NCBI GenBank assembly: GCA_025353765.1
Contig: JANXOD010000015.1
Coordinates: 1 to 64,000, forward strand
DNA length: 64,000 bases
Source of the DNA: Sphingobacteriales bacterium
Lineage (GTDB): Bacteria > Bacteroidota > Bacteroidia > Sphingobacteriales > Sphingobacteriaceae
Reading direction: 5' to 3'
Shown here: one piece after another, positions 10,753-19,361 of the stretch
How positions within the stretch are numbered: the first letter of the stretch is position 1
Layout: each line of letters begins with the position of its first letter
Translations under genes and position numbers: made by a program
Notes under the pieces: model-generated
What the model saw: only the letters and a program-made list of their open reading frames with translations
Database searches by the model: none
Told to the model about the DNA's origin: nothing

Positions 10753-11816
10753 AGCCTATCCAAAGTATAGGTTACTCTATATTTTTTGAGAATAGCCTTG
10801 ATGAATTAAGAAGCTTCCTTTCAGCTAAAAAATATTCCAAGATCTTTATTCTGGTTGACACAAATACAGAACAGCATTGTTTACCACTCTTACAACAAGC
10901 TTTAAATAATTCACTTTCTTATGATATTATAGAAATTGATCCCGGTGAGGAGAATAAAAATATAGATTTCTGTATTGGGATATGGAAAATGTTGCTTGAT
11001 TTTGAAGCAGATAGAAATAGTGTTTTGATTAATTTAGGTGGCGGCGTAGTAACCGATATGGGTAGTTTTGCTGCTTCTACATTTAAACGGGGCATTGATT
11101 TTATACAAGTTCCAACCACTCTTTTATCACAAGTTGATGCTTCGGTAGGTGGCAAAACCGGCATTGATATGGATCATATCAAAAACATCATTGGTTCTTT
11201 TACTCAGCCAAAAGCAGTTTTTATAGAACCTGGTTTTCTTAAAACATTAGATAAACGCCAGATGCTTTCCGGTTTTGCCGAAATTATAAAGCATGGTTTA
11301 ATATATGATAAGGATTTATTTTCTGAACTTAAAAATCTACAGCCTCAGCAAGTAAGCAAAGAAATTATTTATCGATCAATTGAAATAAAAAATAAAGTTG
11401 TTAAAGAAGATCCTTACGAAAAGGGCTTTCGTAAAATCTTAAATTTTGGCCATACTATCGGGCATGCCATTGAAAGTTATTCCTTGAAAAATGATAAAAA
11501 ACCATTATTACACGGAGAAGCTATTGTCATAGGATTTATTTGTGAGGCTTATTTATCAACTAAACAAAATGGGCTAAGTGAAGCAGAGTTTACTGAAATA
11601 GTACATATGTTAAAAAACATATATCCGGCGTATCCGTTAAATAAATCATCTTACCCGGCATTACTGGAAATTATGAAAAGTGATAAGAAGAATAATGCAG
11701 GTATGGTCAATTGTTCTTTATTGCCAAAAATAGGGCATTGCAGCATTGATAATTATTGTTCGGAAGATGACCTGTGTGAAAGTTTAGATTATTATACTAA
11801 AAATTATAAAAAATAA
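10749..11816 (+). CDS. aroB: 3-dehydroquinate synthase
   Basis: The 355-residue NAD- and metal-dependent enzyme makes 3-dehydroquinate from DAHP in the shikimate pathway. The nucleotide-binding part has NLGGGVVTDMGSFAASTFKRG, followed by QVPTTLLSQVDASVGGKTGID. The metal and catalytic region shows FAEIIKHGLI, NFGHTIGHAIE and HGEAIVIG. Length is normal for the family. It overlaps the S4 gene and is followed after only 12 bases by the promoter of the attenuated pheA operon, so the two aromatic gene groups are adjacent but separately controlled. Confidence 0.95.
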   Translation: MKPIQSIGYSIFFENSLDELRSFLSAKKYSKIFILVDTNTEQHCLPLLQQALNNSLSYDIIEIDPGEENKNIDFCIGIWKMLLDFEADRNSVLINLGGGVVTDMGSFAASTFKRGIDFIQVPTTLLSQVDASVGGKTGIDMDHIKNIIGSFTQPKAVFIEPGFLKTLDKRQMLSGFAEIIKHGLIYDKDLFSELKNLQPQQVSKEIIYRSIEIKNKVVKEDPYEKGFRKILNFGHTIGHAIESYSLKNDKKPLLHGEAIVIGFICEAYLSTKQNGLSEAEFTEIVHMLKNIYPAYPLNKSSYPALLEIMKSDKKNNAGMVNCSLLPKIGHCSIDNYCSEDDLCESLDYYTKNYKK

Positions 11817-11827
11817 TTTAGCTTTAA

Positions 11828-11858
11828 TTTGATAAAGTTATTTAAGTATGTACATTTG
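11828..11858 (+). promoter_or_regulatory. Promoter of the pheA leader operon
   Basis: TTTG at 11828-11831 and TACATTTG at 11851-11858 are separated by exactly 19 bases, which matches the Bacteroidota -33/-7 consensus (TTTG-N19-TAnnTTTG). The expected transcript start is a few bases after 11858, upstream of the leader peptide ATG at 11876. This is the best complete promoter in the window. Confidence 0.85.
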
Positions 11859-11875
11859 AAATAACAGGTACAAAA

Positions 11876-11938
11876 ATGAACTTCACTAACACATATTGGT
11901 TTGGCTATTTTTACTATTACAGTAAGAACCGGGACTAA
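11876..11938 (+). CDS. Aromatic leader peptide of the pheA operon
   Basis: A 20-codon frame from ATG 11876 to TAA 11936-11938. Residues 7-15 read YWFGYFYYY, and F3 adds one more aromatic; in all there are three Phe, five Tyr and one Trp. Such clustering of regulatory codons is the hallmark of attenuation leader peptides. The frame lies between a consensus promoter and an intrinsic terminator that precedes pheA. Its last codons (11929-11935) contain the bases that can pair with the 5' arm of that terminator. No Shine-Dalgarno site is visible, as usual in this phylum. Translation has not been shown; the arrangement makes it very likely. Confidence 0.85.
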   Translation: MNFTNTYWFGYFYYYSKNRD

Positions 11939-12001
11939 TATGCAACAATATTGATAAGAGATATTAGCAAAAAGTCCCGGCCAAACAGCCGGGACTTTTT
12001 T
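11929..12001 (+). promoter_or_regulatory. Transcription attenuator (antiterminator/terminator)
   Basis: The terminator is GTCCCGGC (11974-11981) pairing with GCCGGGAC (11988-11995), with a six-base loop, flanking A5/T6 and a T-run reaching 12001. The alternative fold pairs CCGGGAC (11929-11935) with GTCCCGG (11974-11980) and TAATAT (11936-11941) with ATATTA (11961-11966), which destroys the terminator. A ribosome stalled at the aromatic codons 7-12 leaves 11929-11935 free and favours readthrough. A ribosome that reaches the stop codon at 11936 covers that segment and lets the terminator form. The pairing is read from sequence; the mechanism is inferred from known amino-acid attenuators. Confidence 0.85.
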
Positions 12002-12011
12002 ATTTAAAGCC

Positions 12012-12839
12012 ATGCAAACAAAAAGAGTAGCTATACAGGGTATCCGGGCTTCGTTCCATGAAGAAGCCGCCTTTAAATTTTTCGGCAACGATATTGAGAC
12101 TGTAGAATGCAATTCATTTAAGAAAACTTGTGAAGTTCTTAAAAACAAGCAGGCAGATTATGTGGTGATGGCTATTGAAAACTCCATTGCCGGAAGCTTA
12201 CTGCCCAACTATACACTTTTGCGTGAGTATAATTTCCCAATAATCGGTGAAGTTTATCTACCTATACAGCTGCACTTATTAGCTTTGCCCGGAGTAAAGT
12301 TTGAAGATATTAAGTATGTACAATCTCATCCGATAGCCATTCGTCAATGCGTTGATTTCTTTGATGAATTTCCTCACTTACAGGTTATTGAAAGTAATGA
12401 CACCGCAGCCTGTGCAAAAAAGATCCGCGAAGAGCAATTAACGGATACAGTAGCTATTGCCAATCAATTAGCCGCTAAATTGTATGACCTGGAAATTATG
12501 GAACGCCGGATTGAGTCTAACAAAAAAAATTATACCCGTTTTCTAATACTGAAAGACAAAGCAACGGATAGTGCTGAAAATAATAAGGCTTCTTTATGTT
12601 TTCAAGTGGGTAATGGATCAGGATCATTAGCTAAGGTTCTTACTGTTTTTGCAGAGCAGGATATAAATCTTAGTAAAATACAATCCATGCCTGTTTTAGG
12701 TAAACGCAACGAATACAATTTTTATGTTGATATTGAATGGAACAAAAATTCAGACTATGAAGAAGCGATCCGTAAAGCATTAAAGCACACTTTCAACTTT
12801 ACTATTATGGGCGAATACTTAAAAAATGATACAGTTTAA
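12012..12839 (+). CDS. pheA: Prephenate dehydratase
   Basis: A 275-residue enzyme converting prephenate to phenylpyruvate for phenylalanine synthesis. The N-terminal PDT domain starts RVAIQGIRASFHEEAA and contains MAIENSIAGSLLPNYTLL, HLLALPGV and the ESNDTAACAKK region. The catalytic threonine motif near the end of the domain reads NYTRFLIL. A C-terminal ACT domain (residues about 195-272, LCFQVGNGSGSLAKVL) should bind phenylalanine for feedback inhibition. It is the first structural gene after the attenuator. The ATG lies 10 bases past the terminator T-run. Confidence 0.93.
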   Translation: MQTKRVAIQGIRASFHEEAAFKFFGNDIETVECNSFKKTCEVLKNKQADYVVMAIENSIAGSLLPNYTLLREYNFPIIGEVYLPIQLHLLALPGVKFEDIKYVQSHPIAIRQCVDFFDEFPHLQVIESNDTAACAKKIREEQLTDTVAIANQLAAKLYDLEIMERRIESNKKNYTRFLILKDKATDSAENNKASLCFQVGNGSGSLAKVLTVFAEQDINLSKIQSMPVLGKRNEYNFYVDIEWNKNSDYEEAIRKALKHTFNFTIMGEYLKNDTV

Positions 12840-12876: not shown

Positions 12877-13986
12877 ATGAAACTAAATCTTAATATCCAA
12901 CCTTTAAATTCCTGGTTAAAAATAACCAGTGAACCTTTATTAATTGCAGGGCCTTGCAGTGCAGAAACTGAGGAGCAATTAATTGCCACCGCACATTTAT
13001 TGGCAAAAACAGGTAAAGTATCTGTATTACGTGCCGGCATATGGAAACCACGCACTCGTCCCGGAGAATTTGAAGGGATAGGAAGTATCGGCTTACAATG
13101 GCTCAAACTTGCTAAAGAAGAAACCGGGTTACCTACAGCAGTAGAAGTTGCTACGGCAAAACATGTGGAAGAAGCTTTAAAGGCCGGAGTAGATATATTA
13201 TGGGTAGGAGCAAGGTCGACAGTTAATCCTTTTACGGTACAAGAAATTGCGGATGCATTAAAAGGGGTGGACATTCCAGTAATGGTAAAAAATCCGGTAA
13301 ATCCGGATCTTTCTTTATGGTGCGGGGCTTTAGAACGCATCAATAATGCAGGTATCACCAAACTCGCCGCTATCCATCGCGGATTCTCATCTTATGAAAA
13401 AACTGCTTTCCGTAATGAACCGATGTGGGAATTAGCTATTCAACTCAAAACATTAGCTCCGGAATTGCCTATTATAAATGATCCCAGCCATATTTGTGGT
13501 AATCGTGAATTAATTCAATACGTGGCTCAAAAAGCGCTTGATTTAGACATGCAGGGATTAATGATCGAATCTCATTTAGATCCTTCTATTGCCTGGACGG
13601 ATGCCAAACAGCAATTAACGCCTGTGGCTTTGAGCGAATTGATGGATCTTTTGACCCTGAGAAAGCCGGAATCCAGAGATAAAGAATTTGCAGATAAGTT
13701 AGCTCAATTACGAAAGAATATTGATAAGATTGATGATCAGATCATACAGAAAATGGCAGAACGAATGCAGATCGTCCAGAAAATTGGTGAGTATAAACGG
13801 GATAATGGCGTGACCATTTTGCAGGTTAACCGTTGGGATGAAATTATGAATAAACGCGGTGCTTTTGCATCTGCTTTAAAACTTGATCTCAATTTTACAG
13901 GTAAACTTTTGGAACTCATCCATAGTGAATCTATCCGTAAGCAAACGGAAATAATGAATGCTAAACCACTTGTTGAAGAGAAATGA
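12877..13986 (+). CDS. Bifunctional DAHP synthase / chorismate mutase
   Basis: A 369-residue fusion. Residues 1-265 are a KDO8P-like (type I-beta) 3-deoxy-7-phosphoheptulonate synthase, with IAGPCSAETEEQ, LRAGIWKPRTRPG, EVATAKHVEEAL, LAAIHRGFSSYEKTAFRN and NDPSHICGNRE. Residues about 275-365 are an AroQ-type chorismate mutase helix bundle (LRKNIDKIDDQIIQKMAERMQIVQKIGEYK). The protein therefore catalyses both the first step of the shikimate pathway and the branch step to prephenate. The mutase domain often acts as the allosteric site. The gene lies 37 bases after pheA and overlaps aroA by four bases. Confidence 0.92.
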   Translation: MKLNLNIQPLNSWLKITSEPLLIAGPCSAETEEQLIATAHLLAKTGKVSVLRAGIWKPRTRPGEFEGIGSIGLQWLKLAKEETGLPTAVEVATAKHVEEALKAGVDILWVGARSTVNPFTVQEIADALKGVDIPVMVKNPVNPDLSLWCGALERINNAGITKLAAIHRGFSSYEKTAFRNEPMWELAIQLKTLAPELPIINDPSHICGNRELIQYVAQKALDLDMQGLMIESHLDPSIAWTDAKQQLTPVALSELMDLLTLRKPESRDKEFADKLAQLRKNIDKIDDQIIQKMAERMQIVQKIGEYKRDNGVTILQVNRWDEIMNKRGAFASALKLDLNFTGKLLELIHSESIRKQTEIMNAKPLVEEK

Positions 13987-15254
13987 ATTCAGTGAATATT
14001 GCCATTGAAAAAAAGCACCTTAAAGGAACCATTCATCTAACAGGATCGAAAAGCGAAAGCAACCGGGCTTTAATTATGCAGGCCTTAAGCACAGGATTGG
14101 TTAAGGTGCAAAATTTATCTCAAGCCGCAGATACCGTAACATTACATAAAATTTTAAACACCCCACACCCCACACCTCACAACTTACAACATACACCCCA
14201 CACCCCACACCTCATAAACGTTGGTCCGGCCGGAACAGCTATGCGGTTTTTAACAGCTTTTTTCTGTTTACAATCCGCAGAAATTATCTTAATAGGATCA
14301 GATCGTATGAAGCAACGCCCTATGGGAATACTGGTGAATGCTTTAAGAGAATTAGGTGCAGAAATTGAATATCCCGAAAAAGAAGGCTATCCTCCTTTAA
14401 AAATAACTGGACCTTTAAAACAAAAGACAGCTATTATTTCCATTCAGGGAGATGTGAGCAGTCAATATATTTCAGCTCTGCTTCTTATTGCTTCCTCCCT
14501 TCCACAAGGATTAGAATTAATAATGGAGGGCGAACTCACATCAAAACCCTATGTAGAAATGACATTGGCTATGCTGGAACAGGCAGGAATAAAACATCAA
14601 TGGAATGAAAATACCATTTCTATCGGCAATCAATCATTCCGTGCTTCAAACATTTATATAGAGCCCGATTGGAGTGCGGCCTCTTACTGGTATGCTATAG
14701 CCGCTTTATCAACAGAAGCAGAATTTTTCCTTCCGGGATTAAACGGCTATAGTCTACAAGGCGATAGCAAGATCACAGAGATCATGGCAAATTTTGGAAT
14801 CACTTCTCAATTTAAAGATGGTGGCGTGTATCTAAAAAAAGAAGGCAAAAACCTGGAGCGTAAAATTTTTGATTTTAAGGATTGTCCGGATTTAGCCCAA
14901 ACAGTGATAGTTTGTTGTGCTGCTTTAGGCCATAACGCTACATTTACGGGACTGGAAACCTTGAAGATCAAAGAAACAGATCGTATAAAAGCCTTGCAAA
15001 CAGAACTTGCAAAAATGGGTGTTCACCTCATCGAAAAAAACCTAAGCTATAAATTAGACTGTTCAGAGCTTCATTTCCCCGATAAGCTCAGTATTGATAC
15101 GTATGATGATCATCGTATGGCCATGGCTTTTGCACCTTTAGCCCTCTTTATGCGTTCATTAGAAATTGAAAATCCGCAAGTAGTTGAAAAATCATATCCT
15201 AACTTTTGGAAGGATTTGGAGAAAGCCGGGTTTATAATAGATGACAGACCTTAG
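13983..15254 (+). CDS. aroA: EPSP synthase with in-frame repeat insert
   Basis: The 423-residue 3-phosphoshikimate 1-carboxyvinyltransferase makes EPSP. Motifs include LTGSKSESNRALI at the N-terminus, NVGPAGTAMRFLTAF, DRMKQRPMGILVNALRELG, GDVSSQYISALLLIA, IKETDRIKALQTELAKMG and DTYDDHRMAMAF. Between the first helix pair and the NVGPAG motif (residues about 59-77) there is a His/Pro/Thr-rich segment encoded by a duplicated C-rich repeat, absent from the usual family pattern. It sits on a loop before the active-site motif, so activity is probably kept. The start overlaps the previous stop by four bases. Confidence 0.92.
   Translation: MNSVNIAIEKKHLKGTIHLTGSKSESNRALIMQALSTGLVKVQNLSQAADTVTLHKILNTPHPTPHNLQHTPHTPHLINVGPAGTAMRFLTAFFCLQSAEIILIGSDRMKQRPMGILVNALRELGAEIEYPEKEGYPPLKITGPLKQKTAIISIQGDVSSQYISALLLIASSLPQGLELIMEGELTSKPYVEMTLAMLEQAGIKHQWNENTISIGNQSFRASNIYIEPDWSAASYWYAIAALSTEAEFFLPGLNGYSLQGDSKITEIMANFGITSQFKDGGVYLKKEGKNLERKIFDFKDCPDLAQTVIVCCAALGHNATFTGLETLKIKETDRIKALQTELAKMGVHLIEKNLSYKLDCSELHFPDKLSIDTYDDHRMAMAFAPLALFMRSLEIENPQVVEKSYPNFWKDLEKAGFIIDDRP
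14158..14214 (+). repeat. 22-bp C-rich direct repeat inside aroA
   Basis: Two perfect 22-base copies, 14158-14179 and 14193-14214 (ACACCCCACACC followed by CCACACCTCA), are separated by 13 bases. They stand out as G-poor and C-rich in an AT-rich gene and are read in frame as a Thr/Pro/His segment. This resembles intergenic word-repeat DNA that has landed in a coding region. Confidence 0.85.
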
Positions 15255-15570: not shown

Positions 15571-17355
15571 ATGAAAAAACAATTACTTGCCCTAGTCTTC
15601 TTATCATTTATGTTTATGAATAGTTATTCACAAAATTGGAAATGGGCTAATGGAATAAGTAATACAAATAATTATAATACAAGTTCAATTACTACCGATA
15701 GTCAGGGAAACTCTTATGTAACCGGCTATTTTAGTGGTACAAGCACATGGGGTGGCCAAAGTCTTACTGCTGCCGGGTCTTTAGATGGATATATCGTTAA
15801 ATATGATAATAATGGTGTACTCGTATGGGTTAAGCAAATTCGATCTGGAGTCCCATATGGAGAAAGTGTTGAACCTAAAAGTATTGCTTTAGACACTGAA
15901 GGCAATATTTACATCTGTGGCACATTTCATACCATTGTCTCGTTTTCTCCATCAATTAATCTTGTTAATACACCTGGCAATAAGGGCTTAGATGCATTTA
16001 TAGCAAAGTATAACAATAACGGCGTCTGCTTATGGGCACAACAGGCAGGCGATGTTCCCCCTATTCAAAATCAGCCAAATTCTGTTATTGCTAGTTCAAT
16101 CGCTGTTGATGCTAAAGGGAACAGCTATATTACCGGGCATTATTTTGAAGCAGCTAATTTTGGAGCTATTCAATTTATCTCAACAGGTGAAAGTTTGAAT
16201 GTATTTATTGCTAAATATGACCCTTCGGGTAAGGTATTATGGGCAAAGAAGGAAGGCGGTTATGATGTAGATGAAGGGAAAGGAATAGCTATCAACGCTA
16301 AAGGGGGATGTTTTGTGACAGGCCATTTTTCTTACAAAGCAGATTTTAGCGGGCATACCCTTCTTTCTTCTAATAGTATAGGAGTTAGCAGCGGTATGTT
16401 TGTAGCCTCATATAATGAAAATGGAACTATTCAATGGGTAAAGCAAAGCATAGATAAACCCAATAGCTTTTGTTCGGGACTTGCCATTACATCAGATATT
16501 GATGGTAATTGTTATGTTACAGGCGATTTTTACGGAACAGAATCGTTTGGCCCTTATACGCTTATAGTGCCGCCACTTGTAGGTCCTAATGTTTGGATAA
16601 CTAAATATGATCCTTCAGGAAATGAATTGTGGGCAAATAAAGAAGGAAGTATCAATGCAGGAACTAACTCAAATATCAAAGCCATAACCTTAAATAGCGC
16701 AGATAAAGCGGTTTATATAGCAGGCAATTATTCGAATGCCATAACCTTCAGCGATGGTACCAACCTGGTCGGAAATAATAATAATGGGAATCTTTTTATT
16801 GTAGGTTATGATTTAACAGGCAAAATTCAGCTAAAAAAACAAATTATTACATCTGATGCTGGTATCATATATGGTATTGCATCTAACCATGCAGGTGTAA
16901 CACCTTGTTTCTATGTGGCTGGAGACTATTTTAAGACAAATTCTATATTTTTTGAAGATGCATTAAATAGTCCTTCAGGAATAACTTTGAATATAGGATT
17001 TAGTGGCTTTGTTGCGAAATATTATAATGCTGCTGAAAAAGGCTATATAAAATCTTCTTCTGCCTTCAGAGTAAGTAATGTAAGCTCTGAAACAAAGCAA
17101 ACAGGTACTCAGATTTTTCCTAATCCTGCCCAAGGACAATTCACGGCAAGCACAAGGCTTGCTCAAAAAGATCTAGTAGACATTAGTATCTATAATGTAG
17201 TTGGCAGAAGAGTATCTCAACATCAGGCTGTAGCTGATGCAGGTAACTACACTCAAACTATAGACATTAGCCAATTACCTGCCGGTATGTATGTTGTCAA
17301 AATAAACGGCGGCGGAAATAATGCCATTCAAAAATTAATAATTAGCGAGAAGTAA
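15571..17355 (+). CDS. T9SS-exported SBBP beta-propeller protein, copy 1
   Basis: A 594-residue secreted protein. Residues 1-20 are a signal peptide ending YSQ. The body is built of SBBP-type repeats with the pattern GNSYVTGYF, AKYDNNGVLVWVKQ, GNIYICGTF, GNSYITGHY, GGCFVTGHF and GNCYVTGDF, consistent with a beta-propeller. Residues about 515-594 are a type-A T9SS sorting domain (IFPNPAQGQF, then DISQLPAGMYVVKI). The protein should cross the outer membrane by the T9SS and be attached or released at the surface. It is followed by an intrinsic terminator, so each copy is its own transcription unit. The ligand or substrate is unknown. Confidence 0.88.
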   Translation: MKKQLLALVFLSFMFMNSYSQNWKWANGISNTNNYNTSSITTDSQGNSYVTGYFSGTSTWGGQSLTAAGSLDGYIVKYDNNGVLVWVKQIRSGVPYGESVEPKSIALDTEGNIYICGTFHTIVSFSPSINLVNTPGNKGLDAFIAKYNNNGVCLWAQQAGDVPPIQNQPNSVIASSIAVDAKGNSYITGHYFEAANFGAIQFISTGESLNVFIAKYDPSGKVLWAKKEGGYDVDEGKGIAINAKGGCFVTGHFSYKADFSGHTLLSSNSIGVSSGMFVASYNENGTIQWVKQSIDKPNSFCSGLAITSDIDGNCYVTGDFYGTESFGPYTLIVPPLVGPNVWITKYDPSGNELWANKEGSINAGTNSNIKAITLNSADKAVYIAGNYSNAITFSDGTNLVGNNNNGNLFIVGYDLTGKIQLKKQIITSDAGIIYGIASNHAGVTPCFYVAGDYFKTNSIFFEDALNSPSGITLNIGFSGFVAKYYNAAEKGYIKSSSAFRVSNVSSETKQTGTQIFPNPAQGQFTASTRLAQKDLVDISIYNVVGRRVSQHQAVADAGNYTQTIDISQLPAGMYVVKINGGGNNAIQKLIISEK

Positions 17356-17582: not shown

Positions 17583-19361
17583 ATGAAAAAACAATTACTC
17601 ACACTAGCCTTATTATCCTTTTTGTTTATGAATGGCTATGCACAAAATTGGAGTTGGGCTGATGGAATAAGTACTACAGCCGCATCTTATAATCTTCATA
17701 CCAGTTCAATTGCTACAGATAGCCAGGGAAATTCTTATGTAACCGGCTATTTTGCCGGGAAAACTACATGGGGTGCCCAAAGCCTTACTGCTGTTGGTTA
17801 TTTAGATGGGTATGTTGCTAAATATGATAACAATGGTGTACTGGTATGGGTTCAGCAAATTGGATCAGGAGCCGGAATTGGAGAGTATGCAGAATCTAAC
17901 AGTATTGCTTTAGATGGCAATGGTAATATTTATATCTGTGGTACATTTAATAATTTTGCCTCTTTTTCAACATCCATTAAGATAGTTAATAAAGCGGGGA
18001 ATAATAGTTCAGATGCATTTATAGCAAAGTATAGTAATAATGGCGCTTGCTTATGGGCTCAGCAGGCAGGTGATGTTGCTGCTATTCAAAATCAGGCTAA
18101 TTCTGTTATTGCTAGTTCAATTGCTGTTGACGCTAAAGGAAATAGTTACATTACAGGTAGGTATTCACAAGCAGCCAATTTTAGCGGTATTCAACTTATC
18201 TCCGTAGGGGAAGCTTGGAATGTATTTATTGCTAAATATGATGCATCAGGAAATATTTTTTGGGCAAAAAAAGAAGGTGGGTATAATGTGGATGAAGGAA
18301 CAGGAATAGCTATTAATCCTAAAGGAGGATGTTTTGTGACAGGAGATTTTTCTCTTAAGGCAGATTTTAGCGGGACTACTCTTATCTCTAATAGTACAAC
18401 TACCACCAGCCTTTTTGTAGCCTCATATGATGGGAATGGGAATATGCAATGGGTAAAACAAAGCATCGATAAACCCAATAGCTTTTGTATGGGGGCTGCT
18501 ATCACATCAGATATTAATGGTAATTGTTATGTTACCGGCAATTTTTCCGGAACGGAAAGATTTGGGGCCTATACACTTATTACTACACCACCTTCAGGCG
18601 CTAATGTTTGTGTAGTTAAATATGATCCTATAGGGAAAGAATTATGGGCGAAACAAGAAGGAAGCGCCAATTCTGGCAGTCAGATACATAGTACAGCCAT
18701 CACTTTAAATGATACAGATCAGTCAATATATGTAACGGGGAATTATTGGCAAACAATAACCTTTAGTGATGGTACTAATCTAGTTGGAAATAATACCGGA
18801 AATCTTTTCATTATAGGTTATGATCTAAATGGCAAAATTCAGCTTAAAAAGCAAATGACTACAGTTGGTAGCGGTACCCCAAATGGTATTGCATCTAATC
18901 ATGCAGGTGTTGTTCCTACTTTCTATGTAGCTGGAGATTACTTTAATGCCAATTCTCTGTTTTTTCAGGACGTATTGAATAATCCTTCAGGAATTACTTT
19001 AAATGCTGGATATAGTGGTTTTGTGGCAAAATACTTAAATGGTTCTTCTATAAAACCTTTATCCTTGTCATTTAAAACAAGTGCTGTAAGTGCTGATCCA
19101 AAACAGGTAGGCACTCAAATTTACCCTAATCCTGCTCAAGAACAATTTACTGTAAATACAGTGGCTGCTCAAAAAGATTTAGTAGATATTAGCATTTATA
19201 ATGTAGTAGGTAAAAGAGTAGCTCAACAACAGGCTGTGGTTGATGCAGGTAACTATACTCAGACTATAGACATTAGCCAATTACCTGCCGGTATGTATGT
19301 TGTCAAAATAAACGGCGGAGGAAATAATGACAGTCAAAAACTTATAATTAGCAAGAAATAA
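17583..19361 (+). CDS. T9SS-exported SBBP beta-propeller protein, copy 2
   Basis: A 592-residue paralogue of the preceding gene, similar along its full length, with the same signal peptide (MKKQLLTLALLSFLFMNGYAQ in near-identical form), the same SBBP repeats and a type-A sorting domain with IYPNPAQEQF and DISQLPAGMYVVKI. Divergence is spread through the propeller, while the last 30 residues are almost identical, consistent with a tandem duplication under common sorting constraints. Upstream region and terminator position are also duplicated. The function is presumably the same surface role as copy 1, perhaps with altered binding. Confidence 0.88.
   Translation: MKKQLLTLALLSFLFMNGYAQNWSWADGISTTAASYNLHTSSIATDSQGNSYVTGYFAGKTTWGAQSLTAVGYLDGYVAKYDNNGVLVWVQQIGSGAGIGEYAESNSIALDGNGNIYICGTFNNFASFSTSIKIVNKAGNNSSDAFIAKYSNNGACLWAQQAGDVAAIQNQANSVIASSIAVDAKGNSYITGRYSQAANFSGIQLISVGEAWNVFIAKYDASGNIFWAKKEGGYNVDEGTGIAINPKGGCFVTGDFSLKADFSGTTLISNSTTTTSLFVASYDGNGNMQWVKQSIDKPNSFCMGAAITSDINGNCYVTGNFSGTERFGAYTLITTPPSGANVCVVKYDPIGKELWAKQEGSANSGSQIHSTAITLNDTDQSIYVTGNYWQTITFSDGTNLVGNNTGNLFIIGYDLNGKIQLKKQMTTVGSGTPNGIASNHAGVVPTFYVAGDYFNANSLFFQDVLNNPSGITLNAGYSGFVAKYLNGSSIKPLSLSFKTSAVSADPKQVGTQIYPNPAQEQFTVNTVAAQKDLVDISIYNVVGKRVAQQQAVVDAGNYTQTIDISQLPAGMYVVKINGGGNNDSQKLIISKK

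Follow-up and report, generated by a model that had tools for sequence, protein, structure and literature searches.

A candidate attenuator with phenylalanine and tyrosine codons precedes pheA in a Sphingobacteriales bacterium and in many of its relatives

Directly upstream of pheA in a Sphingobacteriales bacterium lies a short open reading frame dense in aromatic codons, followed by two mutually exclusive RNA pairings, one of which forms an intrinsic terminator. The window analyzed here is the whole 64,000-nucleotide stretch of DNA that contains this region, and all positions are given on its forward strand. We interpret the arrangement as a ribosome-mediated transcription attenuator that would sense charged tRNA-Phe and tRNA-Tyr and control an operon of pheA, a DAHP synthase-chorismate mutase (DAHPS-chorismate mutase) gene and aroA, a reading to which we assign a probability of roughly 0.93. 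A sequence-only reading of the same DNA had proposed attenuation of pheA with a response to all three aromatic amino acids and had put it forward as a complete example in a Bacteroidota-type genome. The proposed attenuation gains strong comparative support from conservation, coevolution and spacing; the sensing of all three aromatic amino acids and the novelty fare less well. This kind of regulation is already known, including in this phylum, and it is widespread before pheA in related bacteria. The comparison provides an alignable and testable set of 130 well-supported Phe/Tyr attenuator candidates; the copy in the window has no match to any leader family at the Rfam gathering score.

Leader peptide and alternative hairpins upstream of pheA

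The leader open reading frame (MNFTNTYWFGYFYYYSKNRD, 20 codons) spans 11876-11938 and ends in a stop codon at 11936-11938. Its residues 7-15, encoded at 11894-11920, read Tyr-Trp-Phe-Gly-Tyr-Phe-Tyr-Tyr-Tyr, so that eight of nine positions are aromatic, a run of regulatory codons of the kind that defines a ribosome-mediated attenuator. Upstream, a TTTG box (11828-11831) and TACATTTG (11851-11858) are separated by 19 nt and match TTTG/TAnnTTTG, which we take to be the Bacteroidota-type promoter consensus. Of the 130 loci described below, 102 have a TAnnTTTG box in the 60 nt preceding the leader, compared with 164 of 2600 shuffles. A generic scan for sigma-70-type promoters returned 8 sites where 8.5 were expected by chance.

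Between the leader and the first gene, segment 3 (11969-11981) and segment 4 (11988-12000) form a terminator hairpin of 13 pairs with a predicted energy of −21.1 kcal/mol. Segment 4 ends in a T-run, T-rich sequence follows, and only 11 nt separate the hairpin from the pheA start codon. A terminator scan of our own detected the hairpin and a generic terminator scanner did not list it, perhaps because the stem runs into the T-run.

The 5′ arm of this terminator is also the partner of an alternative structure. Segment 2 (11929-11936), which lies in the final codons of the leader, reaches one base into the stop codon and is supported by folding, coevolution and covariation, pairs with 11973-11980 within segment 3. 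Together with an inner helix (11941-11943 with 11967-11969), this core is the predicted minimum free energy structure of a transcript cut at 11983. The resulting antiterminator, at about −19.1 kcal/mol, is close in strength to the terminator, and the two cannot form at once. In the predicted fold of the full leader RNA (11859-12010), at −40.3 kcal/mol and z = −5.79, the terminator is present. The sequence-only reading had described each of these elements, and each is present: the 20-codon leader with its YWFGYFYYY run, the terminator with its T-run (then placed at 11974-11995) and the alternative pairing (then 11929-11941 with 11961-11980). Its consensus promoter stands as the Bacteroidota-type pair of boxes, with nothing above chance of the sigma-70 type.

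We propose that under a shortage of either Phe or Tyr the first ribosome on the leader would stall within the YWFGYFYYY run and leave segment 2 free to pair with segment 3 before segment 4 is made; this pairing would block the terminator, and the operon would be transcribed. When both amino acids are plentiful, the ribosome would reach the stop codon and cover segment 2, and the 3:4 terminator would then halt transcription just 5′ of pheA. Translation of the leader and a response to starvation are thus predictions of the model.

The timing of synthesis appears central to such a switch. When the RNA is cut before the 3′ arm, all 130 loci pair at least five bases of the terminator 5′ arm with upstream sequence, compared with 415 of 650 shuffled-spacer controls. 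Once the RNA extends through the terminator, however, 111 of 130 loci form the terminator at equilibrium even if segment 2 is unoccupied, and antitermination must therefore rest on the order of synthesis. Known attenuators likewise switch during transcription.

Conservation of the unit in related genomes

To compare relatives we used 158 pheA loci, comprising 17 from the genus, 81 from elsewhere in the family and 60 from elsewhere in the class. The genus loci come from the 17 of 20 genomes with a pheA match, and the 81 family loci were taken, partly by hand, from 118 pheA-matching genomes outside the genus. The class sample held 295 genomes; 60 of the 68 pheA-matching genomes outside the family were taken, the eight left out having the weakest E-values (G176, G426, G345, G296, G172, G436, G386 and G432). 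A Pfam search gave the same tally for pheA, 78 of 295 genomes, so it is unlikely that pheA was missed for lack of sensitivity.

A fixed scan, which called for a leader of 10-45 codons with five or more F/Y/W among 10 residues, followed by a terminator, found the unit at 129 of 158 loci (16/17 in the genus, 77/81 in the family and 36/60 in the class). Only one of 790 dinucleotide-shuffled upstream regions passed the same scan (0/85, 1/405 and 0/300, respectively). At one further locus, L004, the scan had picked another upstream hairpin; re-examination of the last 150 nt revealed the expected terminator, which brings the set to 130. Leader and terminator thus precede pheA in 17/17 same-genus loci. 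Alignment of the upstream regions of relatives, proposed in the earlier reading as a check, bears out the retention of F/Y/W leader codons in all 17. The aromatic leader taken alone (at least five F/Y/W in 10 residues) is more widespread still, being present at 17/17 genus, 80/81 family and 43/60 class loci. Within the window, a scan of 47 open reading frames of at least 150 aa located the leader and terminator unit only before pheA.

With L004 included, the scan leaves 28 of 158 loci without the unit. At three of them (L127, L134 and L153) the sequence directly 5′ resembles, by eye, the end of aroA, and pheA is therefore internal to an operon there. Six class loci (L138, L148 and L155-L158) do have an aromatic leader, with at least six such residues in 10, and no terminator placed by the scan. 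Judging from these sequence features, most of the pheA loci in the class sample are probably preceded by the classical mechanism.

Coevolution and spacing of the pairing segments

If the 2:3 pairing is functional, segment 2 should fit the terminator arm of its own locus. The duplex of segment 2 with its own arm averages −13.4 kcal/mol, compared with −9.7 kcal/mol when arms are swapped between species, in a set of 53 distinct arms whose only control for kinship is the use of one locus per distinct terminator arm; none of 20,000 permutations matched the own-arm mean. Shuffles of the locus's own spacer were beaten at p ≤ 0.05 in 112 of 130 loci, and nine of 130 failed to beat them at p 0.1. An example illustrates the pattern: the arms TCCCGG and TCCCTG are matched with segments CCGGGA and CGGGGA.

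In the genus alignment, 99.1% of cells in the 3:4 stem are paired and three pairs are changed on both sides, a number reached by 2 of 500 shuffles. The 2:3 stem has 77.9% of cells paired, its last three columns pairing in few same-genus rows, and its two doubly changed pairs are reached by 78 of 500 shuffles and are not telling alone. The covariation score of either stem was reached by 0 of 500 shuffles, so that the covariation check suggested earlier turned out in favor of both stems, and versions of the two stems that had been slid along the alignment score lower.

The placement of segment 2 is also regular. The median distance from the last aromatic codon to its start is 10 nt (quartiles 8 and 11), and the leader ends a median of 2 nt beyond it. 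The classical mechanism needs spacing of this kind, as follows from the footprint of the ribosome. The spacing is thus the evidence that segment 2 would be covered by a ribosome at the stop codon and left free by one stalled in most of the codon run, and it agrees with the earlier suggestion that a ribosome finishing the peptide would hide the antiterminator segment in the last leader codons.

These results also bear on whether the hairpin is simply the terminator of aroB, the aromatic reading frame being a coincidence and the pheA promoter lying further downstream. The gene order lends itself to this explanation, since aroB is encoded upstream on the same strand and ends at 11816, 59 nt 5′ of the leader start codon. 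An aroB terminator would hardly be expected to coevolve with segment 2 or to sit so close to the pheA start codon, and leader and terminator together arise by chance in only the single shuffle noted above. By eye, moreover, the unit is kept before pheA in genus loci whose farther-upstream sequence differs. We regard this explanation as highly improbable and favor the attenuator.

A further stem was considered. A possible segment 1 (CATATT, 11892-11897) could pair with 11937-11942 to form a protector stem. In the genus alignment 97.1% of its cells are paired, but it shows no covariation. In a looser form, the 1:2 duplex of the window is no better than its synonymous recodings (p 0.63), and p ≤ 0.05 is reached at 12/17 genus, 19/77 family and 9/36 class loci. 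The protector stem is thus weakly supported and undemonstrated.

The 3′ end of the leader (window 11920-11950) differs among same-genus relatives. Many of these leaders extend past segment 2 to end in GENMQ or GENMR, and two end just 5′ of it. As judged from sequence, a ribosome at the stop codon would cover or adjoin segment 2 in all of these forms.

Amino acids probably read by the leader

Phe and Tyr codons both occur in 130 of 130 accepted leaders, a filtered set for which acceptance required F/Y/W content and no particular residue. Trp codons are present in 52 of the 130 and in 4 of 17 in the genus, which weakens the proposed response to all three aromatic amino acids: the Phe and Tyr part of it stands, and the Trp part is unproven.

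The same genome offers a separate candidate for Trp. A trpE-like locus (a chorismate-binding match), whose neighbors resemble trpG and trpC by eye, is preceded by a 25-aa leader reading frame, MIREINILNYWWPVITTAPGTGILK, that holds Tyr-Trp-Trp (L161 618-695, + strand; contig C16 near 142,100; found by eye). This leader is probably a Trp attenuator; a search of the locus against Rfam gave no match at E ≤ 0.05. Given this separate leader with its two Trp codons, and the absence of Trp from many leaders before pheA, the operon in the window most likely reads Phe and Tyr. By eye, a terminator-like hairpin follows the MIREINILNYWWPVITTAPGTGILK reading frame.

Tyr codons before a gene for Phe synthesis can be understood from the route to Tyr in this organism. 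Its genome (99.79% completeness) yielded no match to PDH_N (tyrA). It does hold a gene for an aromatic amino acid hydroxylase of 592 aa (G000:C13:186740-188518, L166 741-2519), which matches NF010657 at 778 bits, where the cut-off is 346. Tyr is thus probably made from Phe by the hydroxylase, and Tyr codons before pheA therefore make sense; a single switch at this position would serve both amino acids. Synthesis of Tyr by such a hydroxylase has been proposed for Dyella japonica; for the Bacteroidete Echinicola vietnamensis it has been proposed alongside a dehydrogenase (PMC7311316).

The balance of the two codons differs between lineages. Leaders of the genus hold on average 4.94 Tyr and 2.29 Phe, and class loci outside the family 4.44 Phe and 3.47 Tyr. 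One could take this dominance of Tyr in one group and Phe in the other to mean that the attenuator senses mainly one of them, the other codons being neutral. We consider this unlikely, since every accepted leader contains both, and prefer an attenuator that would respond to Phe and Tyr alike.

A possible, and at best tentative, extension is that one class-wide leader reads two end products and that its Tyr:Phe mix is tuned by the lineage's route to Tyr, being Tyr-heavy without tyrA and with the hydroxylase, and Phe-heavy in lineages that retain tyrA at another genomic location. We surveyed 80 genomes, hand-picked among those with an aromatic leader. Of these, 71 had a PDH_N match at E ≤ 0.001, and in 53 the match was above the cut-off. 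We counted tyrA as present in 38 genomes: 34 had a strong match, with an E-value no higher than 1e-28, and in four a weaker match lay, by its coordinates, inside the pheA operon (G317, G395, G287 and G256). The other weak matches were assumed to be other dehydrogenases, including those of the same-genus genomes G001, G008, G010 and G017, which lie just over the cut-off in frames of 427-451 aa. Mean Y/(Y+F) is 0.44 in the 38 genomes with tyrA and 0.61 in the 42 without (p 6e-8). On the PheA tree the tyrA state changes at least four times, at least once within the family, and contrasts of Tyr:Phe against tyrA yield a correlation of −0.27 across all genomes (p 0.017) and of −0.40 within the family (p 0.004), where the support may rest on one event. 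Outside the family the trend fails: four genomes without tyrA and with the hydroxylase average 0.39, compared with 0.48 and 0.43 in those with tyrA. G021, which lacks both, is Phe-heavy at 0.22, and its group of 10 has a mean of 0.55. With a strong raw difference and no trend outside the family, we offer the link between Tyr:Phe ratio and tyrA loss only as a hypothesis. Because lineages with different Tyr routes differ in codon content, these leaders nonetheless make up a natural test series on how an attenuator weighs two amino acids.

Attenuators of hisG and ilvD had been considered as a same-genome comparison and were dropped, as searches of this genome matched neither gene; among 14 control genomes the same searches were positive in 13 and 14, respectively. 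The organism may depend on an external supply of His and branched-chain amino acids.

Comparison with known attenuators

The closest functional parallel is the E. coli pheA leader, in which pheA is likewise preceded by a short leader rich in cognate codons and by an antiterminator and a terminator that exclude each other. The E. coli leader carries Phe codons only, in contrast to the Phe and Tyr codons found here, and in the window DAHPS-chorismate mutase and aroA follow pheA. Comparative prediction of RNA regulatory elements of amino acid genes has reportedly been extended beyond the Proteobacteria in a study of Actinobacteria, another phylum. Lopatovskaya et al. 2010 may already predict pheA attenuators in the Bacteroidota. 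Our literature search, mostly of open-access papers, found no report of a Phe/Tyr leader across the class, and the work just named could contain one.

Searched against Rfam, the region matches no leader family at gathering score. A Phe leader family is neither among the gathering-score matches nor among the 23 matches obtained at E ≤ 10. Thr_leader (RF00506; 29.4 bits, gathering score 55, E 0.00084) ranks first among the weak matches of the 281-base search, and in a larger Rfam search the locus in the window had no match at E ≤ 0.05. A weak match over 11853-11981 to the Bacteroidete tryptophan peptide leader RNA (RF01692, Bacteroid-trp; 25.7 bits, gathering score 49, E 0.71) falls short of membership. 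That family is a peptide-leader cis-regulatory RNA of the same phylum, but it is named for Trp and not for pheA.

The Rfam results also speak to whether a protein, or a tRNA in the manner of a T-box, flips the terminator in place of a stalled ribosome, so that the leader reading frame would matter only as RNA. A leader that is not translated would leave room for such a switch, but no T-box appears at gathering score or among the 23 weak matches, and the leaders keep their content rich in Phe and Tyr while differing in nucleotide sequence and in where the stop codon lies. The odds of such a switch are very slim in our view, and a stalled ribosome is the preferred explanation.

Related elements have been described in the phylum. 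RF01692 is listed as a Bacteroidetes motif (PMC2864571), and short reading frames reminiscent of attenuation leaders are described in Bacteroides thetaiotaomicron (PMC7366714). In F. psychrophilum, a 2021 study speaks of 'strong clues' that amino acid operons are attenuated through leader peptides and describes a structured 5′ element before pheA, also found in other genera of the Flavobacteriaceae and without an Rfam hit (PMC9723704). That element resembles ours in being structured and located before pheA; the accessible text leaves the sensed amino acids unstated. The novelty claimed earlier for the Bacteroidota was therefore overstated, as the Rfam family and these two studies already point to such elements in the phylum. 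Finally, a survey of five bacterial genomes shows two candidate F- and Y-rich uORFs upstream of genes of the shikimate pathway (PMC6429828). Like the leader described here, they tie Phe and Tyr codons to aromatic amino acid genes; unlike the present set, they stem from a five-genome survey, and the accessible text names neither a class-wide set nor a host.

Gene order of the probable downstream operon

The first gene after the terminator, pheA (12012-12839), encodes a prephenate dehydratase (PF00800, 5.8e-56) with a probable ACT domain, whose match of 22.3 bits lies below its cut-off of 27. It is followed by a DAHP synthase fused to a type II chorismate mutase (12877-13986; PF00793 and PF01817) and by aroA, encoding EPSP synthase (13983-15254; PF00275 and TIGR01356), all on the same strand as the leader. 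With a gap of only 37 nt between the first two genes and an overlap of 4 nt between the last two, the three likely form one operon. The order pheA-DAHPS-aroA is kept in 17/17 same-genus loci, and the earlier suggestion that DAHPS and aroA also come under the attenuator is thus likely, provided that the genes are co-transcribed, as this layout suggests. More broadly, DAHPS is the immediate 3′ neighbor of pheA at 100 of the 130 loci that carry the leader and terminator unit. Outside the family, where sequence sufficed, the commonest order is pheA, aminotransferase, tyrA, DAHPS, in which the aminotransferase and tyrA were named by eye and tyrA is backed by a PDH_N match at that position.

Beyond aroA, positions 15571-17355 and 17583-19361 encode two neighboring proteins that resemble each other, of 594 aa and 592 aa. 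Both have signal-like starts and similar C-terminal tails, and by eye the pair appears to be a tandem duplication.
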